Of a stretch of DNA of 64,000 nt, positions 1-55,069 are shown in pieces (positions within the stretch are counted from its first letter, which is position 1; each line of letters opens with the position of its first letter). Position numbers and translations under genes: made by a program. Source of the stretch: Tolypothrix sp. PCC 7910 (GTDB taxonomy: Bacteria > Cyanobacteriota > Cyanobacteriia > Cyanobacteriales > Nostocaceae); contig NZ_CP050440.1 in the NCBI RefSeq assembly GCF_011769525.1, positions 7,302,001 to 7,366,000 of the forward strand. Reading direction: 5' to 3'. The notes beneath the pieces are model-generated. The model was not told where the DNA came from. It saw nothing but the letters and a program-made list of their open reading frames with translations, and did not search any database.

Positions 1-17
1 CCATTGAGCTATGGGGC
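1..17 (-). tRNA. 5' end of a further tRNA, cut by the window edge
   Basis: Read on the minus strand these bases give an acceptor strand GCCCCAT followed by AGCTCAATGG, which is the usual start of a D-arm. The anticodon lies outside the window, so the specificity is unknown. It shows that the tRNA array continues to the left. Confidence 0.6.
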
Positions 18-28
18 ATTGTGCCAGT

Positions 29-104
29 CCCCTAGGTCAGAATCGAACTGACGACCTCTGGTTTTTCAGACCAGCGCTCTCTACCAAAACTGAGCTACTA
101 GGGG
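29..104 (-). tRNA. tRNA-Phe (GAA)
   Basis: A complete cloverleaf: acceptor CCCCTAG/CTAGGGG, D-arm GCTC/GAGC, anticodon stem CTGGT/ACCAG around loop CTGAAAA, and T-arm GTCAG/CTGAC with a standard TTCGATT loop. No CCA is encoded. This gene has no T-loop insert and serves as an in-array control for the interrupted genes. Confidence 0.93.
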
Positions 105-111
105 ATAAAGC

Positions 112-208
112 GAGAACGGAAGGACTTGTTCACCGAAGGTGTTCCCAAAGGGTACCTTCACTTTTCAGTTTCGTAGACTGATGTGTTATCCAGTTACACC
201 ACGTTCTC
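112..208 (-). tRNA. tRNA-Arg (ACG) with an insert in the T-loop
   Basis: Acceptor GAGAACG/CGTTCTC, D-stem GTGT/ACAC, anticodon stem TCAGT/ACTGA with loop CTACGAA (anticodon ACG), a 5-nt variable loop and T-stem GAAGG/CCTTC all pair correctly. The T-loop is 31 nt instead of 7: after T54 comes a foreign 26-nt stretch (129-154) and the loop resumes at C56 as CAAGT. The rest of the molecule is intact. Whether a mature tRNA forms cannot be told from sequence. Confidence 0.8.
129..154. repeat. palindromic element inside the tRNA-Arg T-loop
   Basis: A 26-nt element with two potential hairpins (CACCGAAGGTG, and CCC-aaa-GGG before the TA end). It shares the GGGTA end with the elements in the Ser, Tyr and Trp genes but differs in the other half. 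Confidence 0.7.
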
Positions 209-214
209 AAAGGC

Positions 215-328
215 GGAGAGGACAGGATTTGTAGACGCGGAGCGGCTTCTCGAAGAGTACCTGCGACGGGCTTTAAAACCCGTTTCCTCTTAGCAGGAGG
301 ACGCTTTGAGCCACTCAGCCACCTCTCC
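215..328 (-). tRNA. tRNA-Ser (GCT) with an insert in the T-loop
   Basis: Acceptor GGAGAGG/CCTCTCC, anticodon stem TCCTC/GAGGA around CTGCTAA (anticodon GCT), and a long class II variable arm ACGGG/CCCGT. T-stem GCAGG/CCTGT encloses a 33-nt loop. The loop is interrupted after T54 by a 28-nt element and resumes as CAAAT. Confidence 0.82.
232..259. repeat. palindromic TA...TA element inside the tRNA-Ser T-loop
   Basis: A 28-nt element nearly identical to the one in tRNA-Trp. It differs by a paired change: the hairpin CCC-gaa-GGG of the Trp copy is CTC-gaa-GAG here, which keeps the stem. A second small hairpin (GCGG-ag-CCGC type) occupies the other half. Confidence 0.8.
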
Positions 329-334
329 AACAGA

Positions 335-405
335 CGCGGGAGAAGGAATCGAACCTTCCTAGACAAGCTTATGAGACTTGTGAGTGACCACTACTCTATC
401 CCGCT
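335..405 (-). tRNA. tRNA with CAT anticodon (Met or Ile2)
   Basis: Anticodon stem CAAGT/GCTTG with loop CTCATAA; T-arm GAAGG-TTCGATT-CCTTC; acceptor AGCGGGA against TCCCGCG with a mismatch at 1-72. The three G-C pairs of an initiator anticodon stem are absent, so it is not a standard initiator. Elongator Met or lysidine-type Ile cannot be separated by eye. Confidence 0.8.
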
Positions 406-407
406 AT

Positions 408-506
408 GGGTCGGGCTGGAATTGTAGCTTGCTTCCCGAAGGGTACCAGCAAAGCAAACGCGGCGGTTTTACAGACCGTTGCCCACACCAGTAGGCGAGC
501 CGACCC
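408..506 (-). tRNA. tRNA-Tyr (GTA) with an insert in the T-loop
   Basis: Acceptor GGGTCGG/CCGACCC, anticodon loop CTGTAAA (GTA), a class II variable arm, and T-stem GCTGG/CCAGC. The T-loop is 26 nt: T54, then a 21-nt element, then CAATT. This is the shortest of the four inserts. Confidence 0.8.
425..445. repeat. short palindromic TA...TA element inside the tRNA-Tyr T-loop
   Basis: 21 nt, with the same hairpin half (CTTCCCGAAGGG) and TA ends as the Trp copy but a shorter second half beginning TAGCTTG. Similar TAGCTTG-type elements stand alone at 25228-25249 and 55047-55069. Confidence 0.75.
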
Positions 507-598
507 TCAACTTTGAGTAATTACTTGAGATTTCTGGGTGAAATAAAGGAATGGAGAGACCAGTTTTCCTGCTCTCTGCCATCCCAACTCAAGTCAGC

Positions 599-671
599 AG
601 TGCCGACGGGAATTGAACCCGCAATCTCCTGCTTGAAAGACAGGTGGCTTTACCAATTTGCCTACGGCACC
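599..671 (-). tRNA. tRNA-Glu (TTC)
   Basis: Acceptor GGTGCCG/CGGCACT (G-U at 1-72), D-stem GGC/GCC, anticodon stem CCTGT/GCAGG with loop CTTTCAA, T-arm GCGGG-TTCAATT-CCCGT. An uninterrupted gene. The gaps on either side (507-598 and 672-734) show no further tRNA. Confidence 0.88.
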
Positions 672-734
672 AGGAGTGAAATTTCTACCACGTGTAAGTT
701 TGAGAAGCTGTTTTTAACAGCCTCCAGGTTTGGC

Positions 735-797
735 GGAGGCTGTAGGATTTGAACCTACTCTGATTGATAAAATCAGATGACCAGTTTGTAAGCTTCT
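735..797 (-). pseudogene. degenerate tRNA-like sequence (apparent TAT anticodon)
   Basis: A good T-arm (GTAGG-TTCAAAT-CCTAC) and 3' acceptor AGCCTCC are present, but the matching 5' acceptor pairs at only about five of seven positions, the D-arm is collapsed, and almost no variable loop separates the anticodon stem (CTGAT/ATCAG) from the T-stem. The span is 63 nt rather than about 73. An internal deletion in a former tRNA gene fits best. Confidence 0.55.
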
Positions 798-820
798 TAT
801 GTTGGGACACGCAGTAGAAC

Positions 821-916
821 GCGCAGACAAGGATTTGTAGACGCGGAGCGGCTTCCCGAAGGGTACCCTGACTAAAGGTTTTGGAGACCCTGGTGCTGCC
901 GTTACACCATCTGTGC
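821..916 (-). tRNA. tRNA-Trp (CCA) with an insert in the T-loop
   Basis: Acceptor GCACAGA against TCTGCGC (one A-C mismatch), D-stem GTGT/GCAC, anticodon stem AGGGT/ACCTT with loop CTCCAAA (anticodon CCA), T-stem CAGGG/CCTTG. The T-loop is 33 nt: T54, then a 28-nt element, then CAAAT. Confidence 0.8.
838..865. repeat. palindromic TA...TA element inside the tRNA-Trp T-loop
   Basis: A 28-nt element starting TAGACGCGGAGCGG and ending CTTCCCGAAGGGTA. A free-standing copy with one base changed lies at 50771-50798, so this is a dispersed repeat and not a tRNA-specific sequence. Confidence 0.85.
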
Positions 917-919
917 ATT

Positions 920-994
920 TGGTCGCAGCGGCGAGATTTGAACTCGCATACTCTCGGTTATGAGCCGAGTACCTTACTTTTAGGTGACACTGCA
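920..994 (-). tRNA. tRNA with CAT anticodon (Met or Ile2), CCA encoded
   Basis: Acceptor TGCAGTG/CGCTGCG followed by A and an encoded CCA; anticodon stem CTCGG/CCGAG with loop CTCATAA; T-arm GCGAG-TTCAAAT-CTCGC. It differs clearly from the other CAT tRNA at 335-405. It is the only gene here where a 3' CCA is plain. Confidence 0.85.
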
Positions 995-1003
995 ACGTTT
1001 GGA

Positions 1004-1074
1004 GTCCGAGGTGGGAATTGAACCCACGATGATTGATTTTGCAGACCAACGCCTTACCACTTGGCTACTCGGAC
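1004..1074 (-). tRNA. tRNA-Cys (GCA)
   Basis: A clean cloverleaf: acceptor GTCCGAG/CTCGGAC, D-arm GCC/GGC, anticodon stem TTGGT/ATCAA with loop CTGCAAA, T-arm GTGGG-TTCAATT-CCCAC. No insert. Confidence 0.92.
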
Positions 1075-1083
1075 ATTTTTAGA

Positions 1084-1157
1084 AGCCTCGACGGGAGTTG
1101 CACCCGCTTCTCTGTGACTGAGAATCAGAGCGACTTAATCTACTCGTCCACAAGGCT
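1084..1157 (-). tRNA. tRNA, best read as Glu (CTC)
   Basis: Acceptor AGCCTTG/CGAGGCT and T-arm GCGGG-TGCAACT-CCCGT pair well. The anticodon arm is irregular: taking loop TTCTCAG gives anticodon CTC with a C-C mismatch in the stem, and the D-arm does not fit neatly. The tRNA identity is likely; the amino acid is uncertain. Confidence 0.6.
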
Positions 1158-1164
1158 ACAAGGC

Positions 1165-1238
1165 GGGGATGACGAGACTTGAACTCGCGACTTCCTGTTC
1201 GACAGACAGGCACTCTTAACCAACTGAGTTACACCCCC
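1165..1238 (-). tRNA. tRNA-Asp (GTC), first gene of the array
   Basis: Acceptor GGGGGTG/CATCCCC, D-arm CTC/GAG, anticodon stem CCTGT/ACAGG with loop CTGTCGA, T-arm GCGAG-TTCAAGT-CTCGT. It is the gene nearest the array promoter at 1325-1353. Confidence 0.93.
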
Positions 1239-1590
1239 ACATTGGGTGGCAATTATTTAGTTTTCATGGTTCAGAGGTGTTAGCGTTGTGCCTTTTGCAG
1301 AGGCTCTTTTGCTTCACTACATTTATACTACACAAATACTACAAAAGTGTCAAGGGTATACTACAAATTTTTTTTCGAGGGTGAGAGGGCAGTATTATGT
1401 AATCGCTGTATGGCTATCTCTCACTGGGTTTAAGGGAACTAGTTCAATACAGTTGCGATGAAAAATTGAATCGTGTTCTTGTAGTATGTCCGAAAAAAGA
1501 AAGCAGAAGAAGAATCTCTCCCTCTGCTTTCTCTTCTTCCTCTGCTGCCTCAATGAAGAGATATCTTAACCAAACGGTATTAGGAGTGAA
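1239..1590. other. regulatory gap between the HNH gene and the tRNA array
   Basis: It holds the array promoter and four of the nine TGTAGTA/TACTACA 7-mers (1326, 1337, 1359, 1480). No coding region is supported: the small ORFs here have no ribosome-binding site or recognisable product. Confidence 0.6.
1325..1353 (-). promoter_or_regulatory. predicted promoter of the tRNA array, overlaid by TGTAGTA motifs
   Basis: On the minus strand TTGACA (1353-1348) is followed after exactly 17 nt by TAGTAT (1330-1325), a near-consensus sigma-70 type promoter pointing into the array. Three exact copies of TGTAGTA on the minus strand (1332-1326, 1343-1337, 1365-1359) cover the -10 box, the spacer and the bases upstream of the -35 box, as an operator would. 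Confidence 0.65.
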
Positions 1591-2127
1591 TTACTCATTC
1601 TCAGTGAGGCGTTGTGCATTCCAAAACTGTTCTGCAAATGCAACAGCTGGGTGAATTGGAGCTTTGGGTTTGGTTTTAAGTACCATTCCTGCTTCATGTG
1701 GTAGGCGATCGCTCTTAGTTGAGTTGCAACGTTCACAAGCTGTAACAACGTTATTCCAGGTATGCTGACCACCTTTAGAACGGGGAATTACATGGTCGAG
1801 GGTGAGACGCTTAGTGCTTCCACAGTATTGGCAGGTGTGTCCATCACGTTTGAGTACTTCACGTCTATTTACAGGTGGTACTTTCCAATGACGTTCAGGA
1901 TTGCCAAATGTTAGACGAATGTGTTCGGGAACTTGTAGTACGAAGCTAGGAGAGCGAACTTCCCAAAGCTTAGTACTGCCAAACTCTAGTGATTCTGCCT
2001 GTCCGGTGACTAAAAGCACAATGGCTCGTTTAATGTTAACCCGTGCTAATGGTAGGTAGTTCTTAGAGAACACGACCACCGAATTTTGTAGTATGTGTGA
2101 TTTCTGAGTCTGTGGTTGAGCTTCCAT
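1591..2127 (-). CDS. HNH endonuclease of the common cyanobacterial type
   Basis: A protein of about 178 residues with the HNH/treble-clef signature, numbered from the upstream GTG at 2139: CxxC (103, 106), the LDH motif (115-116), the paired Asn (129-130) and a second CxxC (135, 138). The N-terminal segment SVVVFSKNYLPL is typical of cyanobacterial HNH proteins. The ATG at 2127 is preferred because GAGGAG sits 11 nt upstream, whereas the in-frame GTG at 2139 overlaps that site. Two TGTAGTA 7-mers lie inside the coding region (1934, 2087). The family presumably nicks or cuts DNA; its target is unknown. Its position directly upstream of the tRNA array, with shared motifs, suggests common control. 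Confidence 0.88.
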   Translation of the reverse strand: MEAQPQTQKSHILQNSVVVFSKNYLPLARVNIKRAIVLLVTGQAESLEFGSTKLWEVRSPSFVLQVPEHIRLTFGNPERHWKVPPVNRREVLKRDGHTCQYCGSTKRLTLDHVIPRSKGGQHTWNNVVTACERCNSTKSDRLPHEAGMVLKTKPKAPIHPAVAFAEQFWNAQRLTENE

Positions 2128-2144
2128 AAGTGAATTCACTCCTC

Positions 2145-2184
2145 AAAAAATAACCCCCGCCTCTAGTCATTCAGGAGCGGGGGT
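2145..2184 (-). terminator. rho-independent terminator after the 89-residue ORF
   Basis: On the minus strand an 8-bp stem ACCCCCGC/GCGGGGGT is followed by TTATTTTTT. It overlaps the TGA of the ORF at 2184-2453 and precedes the HNH start codon, so it would end or attenuate transcription between the two. Confidence 0.75.
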
Positions 2185-2453
2185 CAAGTAGTTAATACTC
2201 TTGGCTTTATAGTTGGCACAAGAAAGCACTTGCACCTCCCGCTCTGTATCAGTCGATTTGGATTTAGCCAGAGCGCGATTGCTCCTACGATCCCTTGATT
2301 TGCAGATTTACTGCCCACAAACCGATATATTCCCTCAAATGCCAATAGCCCATACAAGCTAGCGGCTTTACAGAATGCGATCGCTTTACCTAAACCCTTG
2401 CTGGGTAGGCAATCTATCGCGCACTTATATGTTGAGGAAAATCTGCGGTTCAT
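2184..2453 (-). CDS. hypothetical 89-residue protein
   Basis: I do not recognise this protein. It has several Cys residues and no clear membrane segment or motif. Support for it being expressed comes from context: a predicted promoter 45-75 bp upstream (TAGACA, 17 nt, TATTAT at 2526-2498) and a strong terminator exactly at its stop codon. The coding claim itself is weak because there is no good ribosome-binding site, and the transcript could instead be a small RNA. Confidence 0.35.
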   Translation of the reverse strand: MNRRFSSTYKCAIDCLPSKGLGKAIAFCKAASLYGLLAFEGIYRFVGSKSANQGIVGAIALWLNPNRLIQSGRCKCFLVPTIKPRVLTT

Positions 2454-2497
2454 TGAAATTCTGTAGTATGTGTGATTAAGACTAATAACTAATATTT

Positions 2498-2526
2498 ATA
2501 ATACAGTTGTAGTATAAAATTGTCTA
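2498..2526 (-). promoter_or_regulatory. predicted promoter with TGTAGTA inverted pair
   Basis: On the minus strand TAGACA (2526-2521), a 17-nt spacer and TATTAT (2503-2498). TGTAGTA motifs lie across the -35 box (2525-2531) and in the spacer (2508-2514) as an inverted pair, with another copy downstream at 2462-2468. The layout mirrors the tRNA-array promoter. Confidence 0.55.
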
Positions 2527-2910
2527 CTACATATTGTAACTAATATCAATACTTGTTGGTAAAAGGGCAAAAGGTTAACGGGAAAAGGGAAATCAAATAC
2601 CTGACCGGGATTTGCACTCAGCACGTTCCAGTCAGCCATTCACGCTCCTGTTTTGGCACAACCGAGGATGAAAATATTAATCCTTCCTTCTGCCTCTTGC
2701 CCTCTGCCTCCTGCCTTATTTTCAATACAGGACTAAAGCTGATAGAGCGTGTAGAATTGTCACTTGCAGTCTTGACGTTATTAGTGTCTCGGGTGAGAAC
2801 AGGTTTCATTGGCGACCAACTTTATGATGTGTAAGCTTGCTTAAAATCATCCTGAAGTAGAAGCACTATGTACCAAAAGTTAATCTATACACTAATTTAG
2901 GAGAATAATT
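2527..2910. other. intergenic region upstream of the patatin gene
   Basis: Beyond one end of the TGTAGTA inverted pair I see no gene. Stretch 2600-2660 has a vague tRNA T-loop look (GGGATTTGCACTC) but no foldable tRNA. AGGAGA just before 2911 is the patatin ribosome-binding site. Confidence 0.5.
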
Positions 2911-4092
2911 ATGTCCTTCAAAATCCTCAGTATGGATGGTGGCGGGATGCGTGGAGTAATTACTGCACGGATACTCCAAGAAGTTGAACAACAGATTAGA
3001 AGACAGAAAGGACAGTCTTTACATGAATATTTCGACCTTATTGCTGGTACTTCTACTGGATCAATTTTAGCAGCGGGAATTGCTTTAGGTAAAACTAGTG
3101 CAGAACTAATAGATCTATATGTGAATAAAGGTAAATACATCTTCCCCCTCAAAATTAAAAACCGCTATAAAAGGTTTCCATCTTTCATACAACCCATTTT
3201 GGAGGCATTGTCACCTAGCAAATATTCTCACGAAGGGCTGATTAAAGTTCTGATAGATGAGTTGGGATACCGCAGAATTCAAGATATAGAAAGTCCGATT
3301 ATTTTGATTTTGGCTTACGATACACTTTATCGCAATACAACATTTTTTACGAATTGTCATCCTGATTTAGGCTACCGTTGGTACGATGAATGTTATTTAT
3401 GGCAGTTATGTGTCGCCTCTGCATCAGCTCCTTCGTTTTTTCCACCTTATAATTTAGAGCCTGTTAATAAAGAGAAATTTGGCAATTGGGTATTTCCACA
3501 TATTGATGGTGGCGTATCAGCTAATAATCCGGCTTTGGCGGCGCTAAGTTTAATTATGAGAATTAGTCAATGTTCAGATCGGGTTGTTTCCCAAGAAACA
3601 AAGTGCAAATATAAGCTACAAAACCTCCAGATGGAAGACATATCTATTCTTTCGATTGGCACTGGTCAAACTGGCGAACCTTATCAATTTGAGCAAATCA
3701 ATAAGTGGAAACCTTTAGACTGGGCACAACATATTCCTGATATTTTTATGGAGCCTACATCTGAGGTTAATAGCACTATTTGTCGGCAAATTATGGGTGG
3801 ATATGAATCTCAAAGGTATTTACGCCTGCAATTTGATTTAAATGAGAGATTTAAGGCGAAGCCAGGAGAAACATATAAAGACAGTAGAGTCTTATTGCGC
3901 CCAGAAGACCGGAAAAATAAATATACAGATATAAAAGTGAATGAAGACATAGATAACGCTCACAGAGACATTATTGCACAATGGATAGATACTACATCTG
4001 CATACATAGATGAAGGCCATACATACTATACAAGAGACGATGTTGGGCCTAAGGTAAAAGATGCGATCGCATCTTTTATTGCTCTTAACTAG
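2911..4092 (+). CDS. patatin-like phospholipase
   Basis: A 393-residue patatin-family lipid acyl hydrolase. The oxyanion loop DGGGMRG is at 9-15, the nucleophile elbow GTSTG at 46-50 (Ser48), and the second catalytic residue is Asp199 in the DGG motif (199-201), so the Ser-Asp dyad is complete. There is no signal peptide or transmembrane segment, so it would act in the cytoplasm on membrane lipids. A good AGGAGA precedes the ATG. It stands alone: no nucleotide cyclase, Cap2/Cap3 or other CBASS gene is within the window, so a defence effector role is possible but unsupported. Two hairpins follow the stop. Confidence 0.9.
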   Translation: MSFKILSMDGGGMRGVITARILQEVEQQIRRQKGQSLHEYFDLIAGTSTGSILAAGIALGKTSAELIDLYVNKGKYIFPLKIKNRYKRFPSFIQPILEALSPSKYSHEGLIKVLIDELGYRRIQDIESPIILILAYDTLYRNTTFFTNCHPDLGYRWYDECYLWQLCVASASAPSFFPPYNLEPVNKEKFGNWVFPHIDGGVSANNPALAALSLIMRISQCSDRVVSQETKCKYKLQNLQMEDISILSIGTGQTGEPYQFEQINKWKPLDWAQHIPDIFMEPTSEVNSTICRQIMGGYESQRYLRLQFDLNERFKAKPGETYKDSRVLLRPEDRKNKYTDIKVNEDIDNAHRDIIAQWIDTTSAYIDEGHTYYTRDDVGPKVKDAIASFIALN

Positions 4093-4146
4093 TTGCATCC
4101 ACTTAAAAGCATATAAAAAATATAATCCTTAAGGCTATTTAGATAG

Positions 4147-4187
4147 AAATCTCGTATGTTTACGAGATTTTCGCGTATTTATACGCG
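4147..4187 (+). terminator. tandem hairpins after the patatin gene
   Basis: A 10-bp stem (AAATCTCGTA/TACGAGATTT, loop TGTT) is followed at once by a second perfect hairpin CGCGTAT-TT-ATACGCG. The T-run is short, so termination may be weak or the hairpins may protect the 3' end. Confidence 0.55.
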
Positions 4188-5816
4188 CCACAATCAGGAT
4201 TTTTGTGTTTGTTTCAGTAAGAGCTACATATTGATGATAAAAATTTCGGTTTCTGAATGTAGGATTCAATTAGATTATTAAATATATTAATCTCTACACA
4301 CAAATTTTATCTGTATAAATATTTAATTTCTCAGCAAAATAATCTACCTAAGCCTAAGTTATACTGCTGAAATGAGTTTGGTAATTTTGAAACTTTTAAA
4401 TAATATATTTAGGGATTTAAGTATTATGGGCATTATCTCAGTAATTTGAGAAAGTCTGACTAGACAATAAATCTCTGTTAGTTATGTATAAACTCTGTTT
4501 TCAAGCAATCAAAAATACAGATATGCTTAGATAACAAATCTTAAAATTTGCTAAAATGCAAACCAAATATTAGATTTAACAGTATTGTGCCAACAGGCTG
4601 ATTACTGTTGTAAAAGATTAAATTAGAACCACCCAGCAATCATTACAACAAGCTCAGAACTCCATCTTCTTAAGGTAATTTAAGGATGATAAAGCATAAT
4701 GCCAGCAGCTTACAAAATCCCGGCAATATTAATAGCAGAACGAAAATAAATTCTAAAAAGAGTTGTTTTTGAATGCAGGCATTGATTAAATCTGGTAATT
4801 ACCAAGCACTGCTATACAGAAATCAATCAATTTTAGATTTGCGTTAGCGAATCGATAGCTTTGCATAGTTTCTTATAGAGAGGAACAAGTATCTTTTTGA
4901 TACGCTCGAAATAAAAGTGGTGTCGAGTAAACAAAAACCAATCCAAAATCTAAAATTTCTACAGTCAAAAGCAGCCAGATGTTAGTTCATCAAACTTCTA
5001 CCACCAGAGAAACCTGATCTCTATGGTATGTAAACTATGCGTGGCATTTCCTTCGCCAGCAGGATAGCAACTAGCATTTAAAAGTCAAACATTGTTTATT
5101 CTAAAATTTTGTCTTGACTTTGAAACTTTAGGTAGTCATAAAACATCTTTCCTTAAAGTGGCGATACTAGATATCCCCTATGAAAGAATTGCGCTAGCCA
5201 AATGCGTTGAGTCCAGTGTAATTCATCTACTCTTAATTTCTGCTTAAGCAAAAAATTAATTGTGGATACAAACGGTGTGTCTATCTTTTGTCATGTGGAT
5301 ATTGTGTACATTTAGCAAACAAATTAGGTAAGATAACAATGTTAATTAATTCCTCAGATGAACGTGGTAGCGGCAGATAGCACAAGCATAGATTCCCTCT
5401 TAGCTATTTGCAAAATTTGATTCAGTTTATGGGTGCTGAGTACAAGGAAAAATCGCTCAAGCTAGATGATTGAGCAAATCAGAAATTTATTTTTTGAAAA
5501 TAGTTAAAGCTAGAAGAAAGCTGCAAAGAAGGTCATCCTGCTTCGCCTACTTCCGATGGCTACTAATCTATTTGTATTGTGTAGAAGCCTTTACTAACCA
5601 AGTACTCAGCATCTAGTTACATACAAAATAATTGTCTATGAGTATAGGGCATTGGAATGCAGACTAGGGAATACACCTGTCAGCTTCAATGCCCTGTCTC
5701 TATAGAGTTAATCTTTGTTTATAACCAGAGAAAGATGTAAAGATTACTCAATTTGTGGAAATTTAGGTAGTAGAGATGAAAATTTATCACATCTTGGCAA
5801 AGCTACTAAATCCTCC
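4188..5816. other. 1.6-kb AT-rich region without recognisable genes
   Basis: There is no ORF with a start, ribosome-binding site and recognisable product on either strand. One copy of the dispersed AATCCAAAATCTAAAAT repeat lies near 4940. The region could hold decayed genes or a small RNA, but I see no firm signal. It is the largest such gap in the window. Confidence 0.5.
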
Positions 5817-6935
5817 ATGCAAAATAATCTGGTTATGTTCCCTAGCCTGAAGGTAGCAGGGAATAATTCACACGCAACGCAAACAAAGCCTACTAAGTAT
5901 AACTATGCTGAGCAGCTGTTTATAGAACTGCTAGCAACAGAAAATTTAGATGAACAAATAGAAAATGTTGCTGGGAAAGCCAAGGCGTTTGAACAGACGC
6001 TGTCAATAGCAATTCATGCAGCTTATGAAAATAGCTGTGGTGAGCAAGATGCTCATCTGTTTTTACAAAGAATACTTTATCGCATTAATCGACTGAATTT
6101 GTTTTGGTATGACGATTTGCGACATTATGACAATGAGCGATCGCTTTACTTGTCTTCATGTCGTAATCAAATTGAAGCTGCTTGGCAAGCTTGGGAACTA
6201 GCGCAATTCGATTTGCTAAAATTACAAAAATTGAATGCCAAACAAGCACTTACTGAACGTGCATCTTTTGATGTTGATCCACCCTTATCGCCGGATAGTC
6301 GCTATCTTCGTGAAGAAATGAGCGAGGTTGGCTATCGTCACTTATTAGCGATCGCATCTTTTGATGGCTTGGTAGAAGGTAGCCGTATGACCAACATTTT
6401 GGGTGGTGCGGCGAATGAAGTGCAATGTACGCTGGTGCGGGTCTTTTTGGAAGAATACGGCAACGGTCGCTTACCGCGCAAGCACTCAACATTTTTTGCC
6501 CAAATGTTAGATGAGTTTGGGATGAATACTAAACCTGAGGGATATTTTGATTTAGTACCTTGGGAAGTTTTAGCTTGTGATAACCATAATTTCTTAACTA
6601 CACAGCGTAAACGCTATTTTCTGCGCTACAGTGGTGCGTTAACCTATTTTGAAGTTGCGGGCCCAGCTGCTTATCGAAATTATTTGACGGCGGCGCAACG
6701 ATTGGGATTGTCACAAGCAGCGATGGGTTATTGGGAACTGCACATTAAGGAAGATGAACGCCACGGTCGTTGGATGTTGGATGATGTGGCTTTACCTTTG
6801 GCAGATAAGTATCCCCATGATGCTTGGGAATTGGTACTAGGTTATGACCAAGAGAAATTTATGGGCGATCGCGCTGCAAAAGCTGTTGTTCGTTCAATAC
6901 GTGAAGTTGAACAAGCTGCTTTAGGCAGTAGATAA
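5817..6935 (+). CDS. iron-containing redox enzyme family protein (haem-oxygenase-like diiron fold)
   Basis: The C-terminal two thirds resemble the haem-oxygenase-like diiron oxidase/oxygenase family. The stretch WELHIKEDERHGRW holds spaced His/Glu residues of the H...ExxH kind that bind the metal pair, with helical segments throughout. Such proteins oxidise small metabolites or free amino acid-derived substrates; the substrate here is unknown. The frame is open from a TTG at 5715, but the upstream 34 residues look non-coding, so the ATG at 5817 is chosen (372 residues). It is followed 166 bp downstream, on the same strand, by a methyltransferase, which suggests joint action. Confidence 0.75.
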   Translation: MQNNLVMFPSLKVAGNNSHATQTKPTKYNYAEQLFIELLATENLDEQIENVAGKAKAFEQTLSIAIHAAYENSCGEQDAHLFLQRILYRINRLNLFWYDDLRHYDNERSLYLSSCRNQIEAAWQAWELAQFDLLKLQKLNAKQALTERASFDVDPPLSPDSRYLREEMSEVGYRHLLAIASFDGLVEGSRMTNILGGAANEVQCTLVRVFLEEYGNGRLPRKHSTFFAQMLDEFGMNTKPEGYFDLVPWEVLACDNHNFLTTQRKRYFLRYSGALTYFEVAGPAAYRNYLTAAQRLGLSQAAMGYWELHIKEDERHGRWMLDDVALPLADKYPHDAWELVLGYDQEKFMGDRAAKAVVRSIREVEQAALGSR

Positions 6936-7101
6936 ATATAGCCCTGAAAATAGTATTAGTTTCATCCTACTAATTTACTCAAAAATAGCTTTCTTTAGTA
7001 ATCAATTTGTTACTAAAGAAACAGTTTTTATTGCCTGAATATATTCGTCGCAGTATTTTTTCTGCAAGTTTGATTATACCTTAAATTGGAATCGAGGTCA
7101 C

Positions 7102-7797
7102 ATGAAAGATATATTTTTCTGCCCAGAAGAATCTAATTTTTACTCAAATTGTTTAGAAACCTTAGTTCTGAGAAATTGTCAAGATCCTGAGTGTATTGTT
7201 GAGTTTGGCTCTGGCGATGGTAGCCCTGTCATCAACTCATTATTGAGGAATAAATTTGAAGGTGTAATCCACGGATTTGAGTTAAATACCTCTGCCTGGA
7301 AAGCTGCTAATTTAACAATCGATGAGTATAACCTGACCAATAAATATATTATCAATAATTCCTGTTTATTTACATCTGAAAAACCCAAAGGCAAATATCT
7401 TGTAGCCAATCCGCCATATCTCCCTGCGCCCGATAAAGATATTTATATGCCCCTATTATTTGGTGGTATTGATGGTGCGACAATTACTAATGAACTTTTA
7501 TCTTTAGACTATGAAAATGTACTTGTTTTAGTTTCGAGTTTTTCTAATCCTACAAGTACCATTGCTCAAGCGCAAGAGCATGGATATGTTGTAAATAACT
7601 TTGTTGTTTTACCTTTAAAGTTTGGCTACTATAGCTCAGAACCAAAAGTTAAAAAGCACATTGAAAATTTACGTAAACATAAAATGGCATTTTATTCTGG
7701 TGACTATTACTTCTTGGCAGGGGTTTTATTTAGTAAATCCCAACAAGATACACCAGATTTATCTAAAGAATTAGCCCAGGTCATGACCAGTTTATAA
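7102..7797 (+). CDS. class I SAM-dependent methyltransferase with NPPY motif
   Basis: 231 residues. Motif I is VEFGSGDGS (about 33-41, SAM binding) and motif IV is NPPY (about 107-110), which in PrmC/HemK-like N5-glutamine methyltransferases and in N6-adenine DNA methyltransferases positions a planar amide or amine. It is much shorter than DNA methyltransferases with a recognition domain and lacks the PrmC N-terminal helical domain, so a protein or small-molecule target is more likely. GAGGT precedes the ATG. The upstream diiron-type oxidase gene is the only near neighbour on the strand. Confidence 0.75.
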   Translation: MKDIFFCPEESNFYSNCLETLVLRNCQDPECIVEFGSGDGSPVINSLLRNKFEGVIHGFELNTSAWKAANLTIDEYNLTNKYIINNSCLFTSEKPKGKYLVANPPYLPAPDKDIYMPLLFGGIDGATITNELLSLDYENVLVLVSSFSNPTSTIAQAQEHGYVVNNFVVLPLKFGYYSSEPKVKKHIENLRKHKMAFYSGDYYFLAGVLFSKSQQDTPDLSKELAQVMTSL

Positions 7798-8139
7798 TTT
7801 ACAGCAAATTGCGAGTTGGTGAGGTACAGATAATTTTAGGGCAAGGCACTGCCCATTGGTGTCAACTTAAGCTAAAAGCTATATAGGGCGGGCGTTGTAC
7901 AAATCCCCTGCGCCCTCATCCCCTAACCCCTTCTCCCTCAGGGAGAAGGGGAATTGAATCTCTTGCTCCCTGCTCCCCTGCTTTTTCAGGTCAGGTTGGA
8001 GCAATTAAAGATAACTGAAATTCCCGTAGTATCTTTGACAGTAGAAAGCGATCGCATCCAAAATCATAGCTTGGAAATTACCTATGAAATTACAAGGATT
8101 TCAAAGCTGAAGCCACGTTAAACGCGAATTATCAATTCC
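7798..8139. other. intergenic region with a dispersed palindrome
   Basis: Convergent 3' ends. 7927-7951 is a 25-nt palindrome with 12-bp arms (CCCCTTCTCCCT / AGGGAGAAGGGG). A fragment GCAATTAAAGATAACTG near 8000 resembles one end of the 54751-54998 element. No gene is visible. Confidence 0.5.
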
Positions 8140-8811
8140 TTAGTTTTCTAACCAAGTGCGGTAGGAATTTGCGATGATCGCGGCCTGGGTGCGATCGCGC
8201 AGGTTCATTCTCGTTAAAATATGGGTAATGTGATTTCTGACCGTTCCTTCAGATAAATGCAGTTTTTGGGCAATTTCGCGGTTATTTGACCCTTTTGCTA
8301 GCAATAACAATACTTCTCGCTCTCTATCTGTTAATTCCGTTAAGCCTGGCGGTAATGGCTTGGATGAGTTTGCCTTTGTCAATGGCGCTTCTGCAATTAC
8401 TTTTTCCACAATTCCCGGGCCAAATTGGGTATAGCCTTGGTGAACTGATTGAATCGCTTTGGCAAGTTCATCGGCGGGAGTATCTTTTAACAAATATCCC
8501 TTCGCCCCAAAACGCAGCGCTTCTGCGACATAGTCTGTATCGTTAAATGTAGTCAGAATCAAAACTTTGATATCTGGAAATTGCTGACAAATTATTTGTG
8601 TGGCTTGTACACCATTCATCACAGGCATTCGGATATCCATCAGCACCACATCAGGAAATTGGTTGATTTCCTGCAAAGCCGCGAGTTGTGCGATCGCACT
8701 TTGTCCATTATTAGCCTCACCCACCACTTGCAAACCCGGCTTTGACTCTAACAGCGTCTTCAAACCCTGTCGCACAATTTCTTGATCCTCAACAAGTAAT
8801 AATTTAATCAA
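8140..8811 (-). CDS. NarL/LuxR-family response regulator
   Basis: 223 residues. An N-terminal receiver domain has the acidic pocket (Glu8, Asp9), phosphoacceptor Asp59 in LMDIRMP and a conserved Lys near 108 (LLKDTP). A C-terminal LuxR-type helix-turn-helix (about 155-220) begins LTDREREVLLLLAKG. It would bind DNA as a dimer when phosphorylated. The gene lies 218 bp downstream of a NarX-type kinase on the same strand, so the two very likely form a two-component pair. The promoters it controls are not evident. Confidence 0.92.
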   Translation of the reverse strand: MIKLLLVEDQEIVRQGLKTLLESKPGLQVVGEANNGQSAIAQLAALQEINQFPDVVLMDIRMPVMNGVQATQIICQQFPDIKVLILTTFNDTDYVAEALRFGAKGYLLKDTPADELAKAIQSVHQGYTQFGPGIVEKVIAEAPLTKANSSKPLPPGLTELTDREREVLLLLAKGSNNREIAQKLHLSEGTVRNHITHILTRMNLRDRTQAAIIANSYRTWLEN

Positions 8812-8813
8812 AT

Positions 8814-8869
8814 TTGGTGTTGGGTGTTTGGTAATGGGTGTTTGGTAATAGGTAATTGGAATTTTGCAT
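8814..8869. repeat. degenerate short tandem repeat (TTGGTGT / TTGGTAA heptads)
   Basis: Heptad-type repeats between the regulator and kinase genes; one of many such loci in the window. Confidence 0.6.
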
Positions 8870-8938
8870 TTTTTCTTTCTCCATCATCTCCCAATACTGT
8901 TTGGTTAAGAATTTTTCGTGATGATTTTGGGGTTGGAA

Positions 8939-8958
8939 AGACGCGATTAATCGCGTCT
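8939..8958. repeat. perfect 20-nt palindrome
   Basis: AGACGCGATTAATCGCGTCT is its own reverse complement and is followed by CTAC. An identical 20-mer occurs at 50717-50736, so it is a dispersed palindromic repeat. Confidence 0.8.
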
Positions 8959-9029
8959 CTACAGGATTTAAATGTCAATCGATTTATCTTATCCAAACTG
9001 TATTGCCTCATCTTCCCAATCCCCAATCC

Positions 9030-10172
9030 CTACTCCTCCCCCCTAGGAAAATGTGCCATAATTCGACACCCAGCACCGGGTTTACTAAAAAATTCTATCT
9101 GTCCCCCCATTGCAGCGGTTCGTTCGCGCATTCCTTGTAGTCCAAAGCCTGTCACCGCTTGATCGGAATCAAAGCCTTTGCCGTTATCTTGCAGTATGAG
9201 CAATAATCCATCATCTCTGGTTTGGAGTTTGATTTGCACATTTGTGGCGTTGGCATATTTATAAATGTTGGTTAGCCCTTCCTGAATAATGCGAAATACT
9301 ACATGATTCACAGTATTAGATAAGGGTTGTGATAAATCAATTTCGCACTCTGGCTGGATATCGGTGAGGTGATAAAATTCCTCCGCAAGGTTGGCGATCG
9401 CAGTTTCGAGTAATTGTCCTTGGAGTGGATCGGAACGAATGGATGAAACTGATTCCCTGACTTCTCTTAGGGCTGCAGAACCTAGTTTTTTTGCTTCGAT
9501 TAAAAACTGCTGCGCCCGTTCGCGATCGCTGTGCCACAGTGTTAATACTGTTTCCATTTGCACATTCAGCGCTACTAAAGAATGCCCTAGGGAATCATGG
9601 ATATCACGGGCAATGCGATTGCGTTCTTCTAGGGCTACCATTTCCTCAATGCGTTGATTTAGCGCCCGTTCTTGTTCTAGCGATCGCCTCAGTTCTGCTT
9701 CTTTTTCTTGTAAACGCTGATTTTGTTCTTGGAGTTGCAGCTGTAAGCGGCAAAGTTTTAGTTGCACTTCAATTCGCGCTAGAACTTCCTCAATTTGAAA
9801 AGGTTTAGTAATAAAATCTATACCGCCAACAGAGAAGGCTTTTACCTTATCAAAGACTTCATTTAAAGCACTAATAAAAATGACGGGGATCTCTTGCGTT
9901 TGCGGATCGGACTTGATGTGTTCGCATACTTCGTAGCCACTCATTCCGGGCATATTAATGTCGAGCAAAATTAAATCTGGTGGTTGAGCTTTTATGCCAA
10001 TTAATGCCATTGCTCCATTTGTAACACTCCGTACTTCATAACCTTGCTCTGTCAGCATTGCTGATAGTAAACGCAGGTTATCTAGGGTGTCGTCAATGAT
10101 GAGAATATCTCCTTTGCTTGACGGGTTAAATTGCATACTTCTCAACGAGCTAAGAGAATCATTAATTATCAA
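9030..10172 (-). CDS. receiver-histidine kinase hybrid (HisKA_3, NarX type)
   Basis: 380 residues, no transmembrane segment. An N-terminal receiver domain (about 20-140; Asp27, Asp28, Asp71, Lys123) is joined by a coiled coil (about 140-180) to a HisKA_3 dimerisation domain with phospho-acceptor His192 (RIARDIHDSLGH) and a HATPase domain (N-box and GFGLQGMRER near the end). The cognate regulator gene follows downstream. The receiver at the N-terminus suggests that the kinase is itself an intermediate and takes input from another kinase, as is common in cyanobacteria. Confidence 0.92.
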   Translation of the reverse strand: MIINDSLSSLRSMQFNPSSKGDILIIDDTLDNLRLLSAMLTEQGYEVRSVTNGAMALIGIKAQPPDLILLDINMPGMSGYEVCEHIKSDPQTQEIPVIFISALNEVFDKVKAFSVGGIDFITKPFQIEEVLARIEVQLKLCRLQLQLQEQNQRLQEKEAELRRSLEQERALNQRIEEMVALEERNRIARDIHDSLGHSLVALNVQMETVLTLWHSDRERAQQFLIEAKKLGSAALREVRESVSSIRSDPLQGQLLETAIANLAEEFYHLTDIQPECEIDLSQPLSNTVNHVVFRIIQEGLTNIYKYANATNVQIKLQTRDDGLLLILQDNGKGFDSDQAVTGFGLQGMRERTAAMGGQIEFFSKPGAGCRIMAHFPRGEE

Positions 10173-25227: not shown

Positions 25228-25249
25228 TAGCTTGCTTTTCGGCAGGATA
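25228..25249. repeat. free-standing palindromic TA...TA element
   Basis: A 22-nt relative of the tRNA-Tyr T-loop insert: begins TAGCTTGCTT and ends GGATA. Confidence 0.6.
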
Positions 25250-50770: not shown

Positions 50771-50798
50771 TAGACGCGGAGCGGCTTCCCGCAGGGTA
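50771..50798. repeat. free-standing palindromic TA...TA element
   Basis: 28 nt, one base different from the insert in the tRNA-Trp T-loop (GCAGGG instead of GAAGGG). It lies between the two transporter genes. Confidence 0.8.
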
Positions 50799-55046: not shown

Positions 55047-55069
55047 TACCCCTGCGGGCAAGCAAGCTA
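55047..55069. repeat. free-standing palindromic TA...TA element
   Basis: 23 nt, TACCCCTGCGGG then CAAGCAAGCTA; the reverse complement of the TAGCTTG type seen in the tRNA-Tyr T-loop. Confidence 0.6.

Follow-up and report, generated by a model that had tools for sequence, protein, structure and literature searches.

Small dispersed repeats (SDRs) SDR1-8, as reportedly described by Elhai et al. in 2008 from Nostoc punctiforme and its relatives, are said to be dispersed sequences of 21-27 nt that form hairpins with compensatory changes and occur as nested copies. They are reportedly limited to a subgroup of cyanobacteria, and how elements of about 20 nt move is said to have been left open when they were first described. 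Long arrays of tRNA genes are the second described system of concern here: in the accessible parts of one study, Anabaena sp. PCC 7120 carries a trn operon of 26 genes that is repressed by TrcR and induced by translational stress, the TrcR site TGTAGTAT overlaps the -10 box of this operon, and the TrcR regulon holds rtcB and HNH genes together with it (PMC10272220). Here we analyzed a 64,000-nt stretch of Tolypothrix sp. PCC 7910 (C1:7302001-7366000 of an 8.76 Mb genome in seven contigs; hereafter the window), in which an array of this type contains four tRNA genes, Arg-ACG, Ser-GCT, Tyr-GTA and Trp-CCA, each with a short palindromic insert in its T-loop (Table 1). We call such genes filled. 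We consider it likely, judging from sequence comparisons, that the inserts are non-autonomous micro-elements that enter at T^C-R (^ marking the point of entry), that they are tolerated in a redundant array, and that the filled genes are most likely inactive.

In all four window genes, the insert begins after T54 and ends before C56, exactly where a first-pass annotation of this DNA had placed it, and the T-loops measure 26-33 nt, as it had stated. With G-U scored as a pair, the T-stems are all 5/5, the acceptor stems 7/7 (6/7 in Trp), and the anticodon stems 5/5 (4/5 in Tyr), which agrees with its description of perfect stems in Arg and few mismatches in the other three. The free-standing relatives that it had listed at 50771, 25228 and 55047 all exist, the copy at 25228 being degenerate, and the paired CTC/GAG change that it had seen in the Ser insert is real and recurrent (11 of 127 recognized stems of the first hairpin). 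ARAGORN called none of the four filled genes, and the Rfam tRNA model at its gathering score found two of them, Arg and Ser. The initial observation is confirmed, and the phenomenon is far wider than four genes.

The same genome provides empty counterparts for these sites. In a second array, on contig C2 (78.7 kb), the Arg, Ser, Tyr and Trp T-loops are ordinary (GGTTCAA). His-GTG shows the opposite arrangement, being filled at the same point in the C2 array and empty in the window array, and the difference between the chromosomal and the C2 gene is confined to the T-loop. T55 is not retained in any of these five filled genes, in which TTC has become T-A...A-C. The sequences suggest either that T55 was replaced or that the insert enters between positions 55 and 56 with T55 changed to A; because an A stands at both ends of the insert, its exact boundary is ambiguous.

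Insertions of this kind were common in a homology survey of 47 array loci, in which the gaps between 888 ARAGORN tRNAs were aligned to 718 distinct intact tRNAs. This survey yielded 97 insertions measuring 12 nt or more, of which 88 were unique: 73 T-loop events (71 sorted by script and two by eye, L066 Asp and L076 Gly) and, sorted by eye, nine same-kind elements elsewhere in a tRNA and six other or unclear cases. A T-loop insert was present in at least 32 of the 47 loci, which were chosen for their arrays and are partly dependent: in L053/L097 and in L055/L100, both members represent one plasmid or two near-identical ones. Scanning the fetched loci by structure recovered 146 unique filled tRNA genes of many isotypes, next to 1,030 intact ones. 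The 146 are what remained of 154 script candidates after eight were dropped, one of which (L169 Ala, with a loop from TAACC) looks genuine; 108 further candidates, which lack the TA...A-C form, were excluded, and those listed appear to be largely chance pairings or joins of neighboring genes. Identical pairing thresholds were applied to the two sets, so that decayed genes are under-represented among filled and intact genes alike, and the filled share of 11% is biased upwards because loci were picked by array similarity or insert pattern. We also searched whole genomes of the family with a pattern covering the two commonest insert classes, with the AA-tailed class outside it. Of 192 genomes, 61 contained the pattern, and the reversed control matched nowhere, which indicates that the T-loop inserts are not due to chance. 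In the present genome it matched three times, always in the window array. Of 85 matches with fetched surroundings (two flagged as duplicates), 62 lay among at least six tRNAs within 1 kb and 17 had no tRNA within 1 kb; by eye, the latter comprise 11 odd tRNA-like units, five non-tRNA sites and one isolated Ser-like gene (L146). Moreover, the order contains at least six further families with inserts in their arrays (L031, L041, L046, L047, L049 and L076), and in five of these six the inserts are of the AA-tailed class.

Ordinary pseudogene decay, an assembly artefact or group I introns are scarcely credible explanations for these inserts. The same site is used in 146 genes of many genomes, and in comparisons with related strains, which the first-pass annotation had proposed as a way to expose random decay, other tRNA genes were filled in other species, mostly at the same point. 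An insert of 20-27 nt is far too short for a group I ribozyme. The intron explanation does have a published precedent, as a 22-nt interruption of Arg-ACG in Nostoc sp. PCC 7524, at nt 39-60, is named a "group I intron" in a cyanobacterial tRNA survey (PMC5733544). However, the Arg-ACG gene in the plasmid array of that strain (L094) holds a 21-nt element in reverse orientation at nt 44-64 of the gene, so the published intron is very probably this element under a wrong name.

The elements share one architecture: an A or AT, a first hairpin, an AA or AAGC linker, a second hairpin, and a terminal AA or TA, often TCTA. Un-nested copies are 20-27 nt long in the window and up to about 32 nt elsewhere. 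The first hairpin was recognized in 127 of 134 un-nested copies, with the stems CCC/GGG (94), CTC/GAG (11), TGCGC/GCGCA (5), TCTCC/GGAGA (4), TCC/GGG (4), CTGC/GCAG (4) and singles (5), and with a TTC, TGC, TAC or TCC loop in 119 of the 127. In the class with a AAGCAAGCTA tail, the second hairpin is reduced. Among 39 arms of the TCTA class, compensatory changes in the two hairpins filled nine double-change cells, against at most five in 500 shuffles, and the stem types of the first hairpin covary across classes. Copies occur in unrelated contexts, namely tRNAs, anticodon loops, intergenic DNA and other elements; in nested copies, the loop of the first hairpin itself holds an element (for example, in L058 Met, L072 Gln and L122 Glu). 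Among near-identical filled Tyr, Leu-CAA and Gly-TCC genes of related species, the middle base of the TNC loop of the first hairpin varies, which would point either to independent insertions on several occasions or to a mutational hotspot.

The first-pass annotation had proposed an element that targets the T-loop consensus. One dispersed palindromic family, one fixed point in the T-loop and a site preference all bear this out, but the target itself is better described as T^C-R and is used outside T-loops too; all the targets named below can be read in that way. T-loop copies interrupt T-T^C-R, that is, T54-T55^C56-R57. Elsewhere, the anticodon TTC of a Glu gene in L056 was entered at T-T^C-A, the anticodon GAA of Phe genes was entered in reverse orientation (L058, L067 and L101), Arg-ACG genes carry further insertions in reverse orientation (L057, L065, L094 and L102), nested copies sit at T-T^C-G in the loop of the first hairpin, and one copy, a single case in L010, interrupts the HIP1 sequence as GCGAT[E]CGC, where E is the element. 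Among 74 elements outside the T-loop class of the script, about 28 of which are T-loop copies by eye, the next base is C in 67 and the base after it is R in 69.

The T^C-R rule predicts that T-loops of the TGC type stay empty. We found that the nearest intact homologue reads TTC for all 146 filled genes and that none of these 146 is a filled copy of a TGC-type gene, whereas 72 of the 1,030 intact genes have a TGC T-loop (TTC versus TGC, 146:0 in filled against 957:72 in intact genes; Fisher p = 1.2e-4). Array Glu-CTC genes read TGC in 43 of 44 cases, with no filled copy. The TGC T-loop of Glu-CTC and of some Met genes looks like an insertion-proof allele. Met genes of the arrays read TGC in 24 of 82 cases.

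T-loops receive more than their share of insertions, taking 73 of the 82 elements in the array survey while making up 37% of all TTC and GAA sites, which occur at 2.70 per intact tRNA. The longer context GTTCR, which in these genes is hardly found outside the T-loop (GTTCR/YGAAC at 1.09 per gene), can account for this excess. A stem with two bases and then ^C behind it can be drawn for the T-loop, the loop of the first hairpin and HIP1 alike. A hairpin context was rejected as a general requirement, given that several free-standing copies lack a flanking stem by eye and that the anticodon stem/variable loop is where the four Arg-ACG insertions are found.

Comparison of close relatives suggests that many insertions are recent, since seven chromosomal arrays from the same genus carry largely distinct sets of inserts. 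None of the six other arrays has the Trp, Tyr or Arg insert of the window, and other genes are filled there; many cells of this comparison are unassigned, window Ser-GCT among them. What moves appears to be the bare element rather than a T-arm, because a filled gene and its nearest intact homologue share the anticodon in 137 of 146 cases and have identical T-stems in 117 of 146. The use of both orientations and of targets outside tRNAs further leads us to infer an event at the DNA level and not splicing into a tRNA. As a separate observation, several array tRNAs (Thr, Val, Leu and Tyr; L053, L055, L091, L092 and L096) have the 5' strand of the T-stem replaced by CTCTT, of the GCTCTTTCAAYTCCTG type, and this recurrent replacement is perhaps the scar of a lost element.

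Local gene conversion could also have spread an insert from one T-loop to another within an array, a scenario that we regard as very improbable. Two different tRNAs of the L054 array, Leu-GAG and Val, do share an identical insert, and the Ser and Trp inserts of the window differ only in the first hairpin. Against conversion, different insert classes coexist in one array, the T-stem is that of the nearest intact homologue in the 117 genes mentioned above, and same-kind elements obey T^C-R outside tRNAs.

Non-autonomous elements would presumably be moved in trans by an enzyme, and one candidate is RAYT, the REP-associated Y1 transposase; that the inserts are REP/REPIN-like sequences moved by RAYT is unlikely, although several features point that way. 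The reverse strand of the TCTA and AAGCTA classes begins with GTAG, counting the flanking G, in the manner of the GTAG-tagged REPs that occur in filamentous cyanobacteria according to the accessible text of PMC3733652. The RAYT model scored over its cut-off in 136 of the 192 family genomes and once in G000, and a weak partial match lies beside two elements. However, the AA-tailed class has no GTAG, the RAYT of G000 is flanked by a different palindrome, and in G031 and G182, each of which has a T-loop insert, the RAYT model found nothing at E<=0.001. On the strength of these two genomes and of the other palindrome beside the genome's own RAYT, we rejected RAYT as a required partner, though it may have moved the elements in the past. 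The locus L175 1440-2110 shows the sole RAYT of its genome over the cut-off, flanked by the palindrome GATGCGTTA...TAACGCATC, which is a different repeat family.

We next consider what becomes of the filled genes. Apart from the arrays, the genome has 47 distinct scattered tRNA genes recognized by ARAGORN, all of ordinary length, and these include intact copies of Arg-ACG, Ser-GCT, Tyr-GTA, Trp-CCA and His-GTG. Their T-loops were read except for Ala-CGC, Arg-CCT and Glu-TTC, whose gene lengths are ordinary. The pattern for the two commonest classes has no match among them, although they share the same TTC. In minimum free energy (MFE) folds, the T-stem is kept in 18% of filled and 77% of intact genes. 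Of the three outcomes left open by the first-pass annotation, namely an insert that is removed from the RNA, tolerated or inactivating, the intact scattered isoacceptors, the restriction of the pattern to the window array and the spoiled T-stem in the predicted folds favor an insert that inactivates and is tolerated; the filled genes are probably inactivated in this way.

The mechanism that we propose would run as follows. Non-autonomous micro-elements of about 20-32 nt (un-nested), each with a first hairpin bearing a TNC-type loop, an A-rich linker, a second hairpin and a terminal AA or TA, would insert at T^C-R, with T54-T55^C56-R57 as the main site in tRNA genes, where T55 would be lost or become A. 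They would pile up in the supernumerary, probably TrcR-repressed array because the scattered housekeeping tRNAs sustain translation. A filled gene would give a tRNA with a T-loop of at least 26 nt, unable to make the normal contact between T-loop and D-loop and hence most likely inactive, and filled genes would arise and be replaced quickly.

Several results weigh against this interpretation. The view that scattered genes are spared rests on their intact copies and on the lack of a pattern match, since ARAGORN misses filled genes and the pattern excludes the AA-tailed class. MFE folding is a weak test for tRNA, as 23% of intact genes fail it. Filled genes are no more diverged than intact ones, with an identity to the nearest intact homologue of 0.947 (n=143) against 0.948 (n=1,150; p = 0.59) and means of 0.48 and 0.41 mispairs, and retained function would give the same lack of decay. 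Not all inserts need be young, as the Ala-TGC and Val-TAC inserts each recur in three of the seven same-genus arrays; the Tyr, Leu-CAA and Gly-TCC inserts recur among related species. We read the lack of decay as recency, given that insert sets differ between close relatives.

A distinctly unlikely alternative is that filled tRNAs work, either with the hairpins protruding from a rebuilt T-loop or after the insert has been excised and the ends joined to leave TACAANT. Conservation speaks for it: the stems, U8 and A14 of filled genes are about as conserved as those of intact genes, overall identity is about the same, and the D-loop GG is kept in 141 of 146 filled and 959 of 1,030 intact genes. 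An excision that kept one of the two terminal A residues would give a 7-nt loop, and, in the accessible parts of the Anabaena study, rtcB and HNH genes share the TrcR regulon with the trn operon (PMC10272220). On the other hand, no excision can restore T55, most MFE folds lose the T-stem, and the scattered tRNAs lack the pattern despite their TTC. We know of no bacterial enzyme that would cut at a T-loop insert. A related idea, which we regard as a long shot, is that the T-loop serves as a sanctioned docking site, with the insert accommodated in a rebuilt elbow, or cut and re-ligated under translational stress by the co-regulated RtcB. If so, this would be the first case in bacteria of an interrupted T-loop that is dealt with at the RNA level, and the filled genes, instead of being dead, would encode conditional tRNAs, which would account for their lack of decay.

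The four window genes belong to a trn-operon-type array (L009), which comprises 24 ARAGORN tRNA genes and the four filled ones behind TGTAGTAT motifs. Like the cyanobacterial trn operon in the accessible text of PMC10272220, it is long and redundant and has the TGTAGTAT promoter motif; such arrays are often plasmid-borne, usually with an HNH gene upstream in the records examined. The main text of that paper does not contain the words "T-loop" or "pseudogene". The window holds nine TGTAGTAT motifs against 1.47 expected. They span 1325-9303, and the copies at 2462, 2508, 3989 and 9296 may mark further TrcR-type genes. Similar arrays lie on named plasmids of Nostoc, Calothrix, Tolypothrix and Kovacikia; in 12 such arrays, the position of the HNH gene is held by an annotated HNH gene in seven, by a hypothetical protein of the same size in three and by neither in one, and the record of the twelfth array is unannotated. 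By analogy with Anabaena, the window array is probably repressed by TrcR, and the TrcR and trn operon findings there support the idea that a silent, redundant array can tolerate insertion. A phage origin of the array was rejected, as only 5-7% of the query was similar in the 20 listed of 24 phage records.

Table 1. Positions of the tRNA genes, their inserts and neighboring features in the window
Feature	Position	Strand	Details
tRNA array, promoter-proximal part	1..1238	-	extends past window start to about C1:7300593
tRNA-Arg(ACG)	112..208	-	T-loop 31 nt; acceptor 7/7, T-stem 5/5, anticodon stem 5/5; RF00005 48.3 bits
Arg insert, AA-tailed class, two hairpins	129..153	-	25 nt, T54/C56; empty in C2 array and in 6/6 other same-genus arrays
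tRNA-Ser(GCT)	215..328	-	T-loop 33 nt; RF00005 39.6 bits
Ser insert, TCTA-tailed class, first hairpin CTC/GAG	232..258	-	27 nt; Ser-GCT with ordinary T-loop in C2 array
tRNA-Tyr(GTA)	408..506	-	T-loop 26 nt
Tyr insert, AAGCTA-tailed class	425..444	-	20 nt; empty in C2 array and in 6/6 other same-genus arrays
tRNA-Trp(CCA)	821..916	-	T-loop 33 nt
Trp insert, TCTA-tailed class	838..864	-	27 nt; empty in C2 array and in 6/6 other same-genus arrays
Three TGTAGTAT motifs directly upstream of array	1325..1365	-	resemble TrcR site of Anabaena trn operon
HNH endonuclease gene, upstream of array	1591..2139	-	PF14279, PF01844
Free-standing AAGCTA-class element, degenerate	25228..25249	-	
Free-standing TCTA-class element	50771..50798	-	
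Free-standing AAGCTA-class element	55047..55069	+	

Odd tRNA-like units also came to light. One lies between Trp and Glu in the window (690-815, minus strand), with the 3' acceptor strand CAGCCTCC followed by GGAGGCTG and with sequences of the AAGCTT/AGCTT type on either side. This unit, perhaps a permuted tRNA-like gene, has relatives in many arrays, and ARAGORN calls some of these relatives Lys(ctt) or Pyl(cta). At L217, about 1350-1670, two tRNA-like units stand side by side (one of them G000:C1:1924547-1924667), in which a conserved motif (ACATCCTT, GGCCGAC, GGGTTAYCG) takes the place of the anticodon region and the order is swapped between the two. Similar units of other genomes, with a T-loop element, are found in L116, L135, L136, L138, L139, L156, L167 and L172. 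Rfam recognized one L217-type unit as a tRNA (RF00005), and a YrlA identity was rejected, the matches being far below the gathering score.

Together, these results make the spare tRNA arrays of many filamentous cyanobacteria a natural archive of a kind of mobile element that is among the smallest known. Each array offers 20-30 similar hairpins as targets, and orthologous sites, some empty and some filled, can be compared across many species. The exact insertion footprints obtained in this way reveal the base that is lost, the T-loop type that is left empty (TGC), the two orientations and the nesting, and they make the insertion mechanism testable. The arrays also suggest that parasites disable part of an inducible spare tRNA set. 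Array contents may be misread in many genomes because programs miss or misname filled genes, as when ARAGORN missed the four in the window and one element was published as a group I intron.

Known systems resemble these elements to different degrees. Group I introns have a core of roughly 200 nt or more and usually lie in the anticodon loop, whereas the inserts here have 20-27 nt and lie in the T-loop. Phage integrases restore the end of the tRNA and insert kilobases; here, in contrast, 20-27 nt remain inside the tRNA gene. The likeness lies in the T-loop as a recombination target, the attB site of the mycobacteriophage Ms6 integrase being in a tRNA T-loop according to the accessible text of PMC1762012. 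REP/REPIN and RAYT systems, in the parts of two accounts that are accessible (PMC3116915, PMC3733652), likewise involve tiny hairpins that are thought to be moved in trans, insert into or beside each other and in some cases carry a GTAG tag. The elements described here differ in having no consistent link to RAYT, the RAYT of G000 being flanked by another repeat, and in their precise T^C-R site. A GTAG tag at the foot of a hairpin can be read on the reverse strand in the TCTA and AAGCTA classes and is absent from the AA class. In the literature searched, whose coverage leaves out many journals, we found no report of T-loop insertions of this kind.

By analogy, the closest known kind appears to be the small dispersed repeats of Nostoc. 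The elements share with them size and dispersal, compensatory structure, nesting and, in one case, precise insertion into HIP1; the likeness rests on these features. In the accessible text of PMC4390886, SDR5 sits precisely between nt 3 and 4 of HIP1, which on the other strand is GCGAT^CGC and so the same T^C-R site as that of the L010 copy. The accessible SDR accounts make no mention of recurrent insertion into array T-loops, of a lost T55 or of TGC-type genes that stay empty. Elements of this kind are known; judged by the literature searched, their target, the base rule and the lack of filled TGC-type genes appear to be new.

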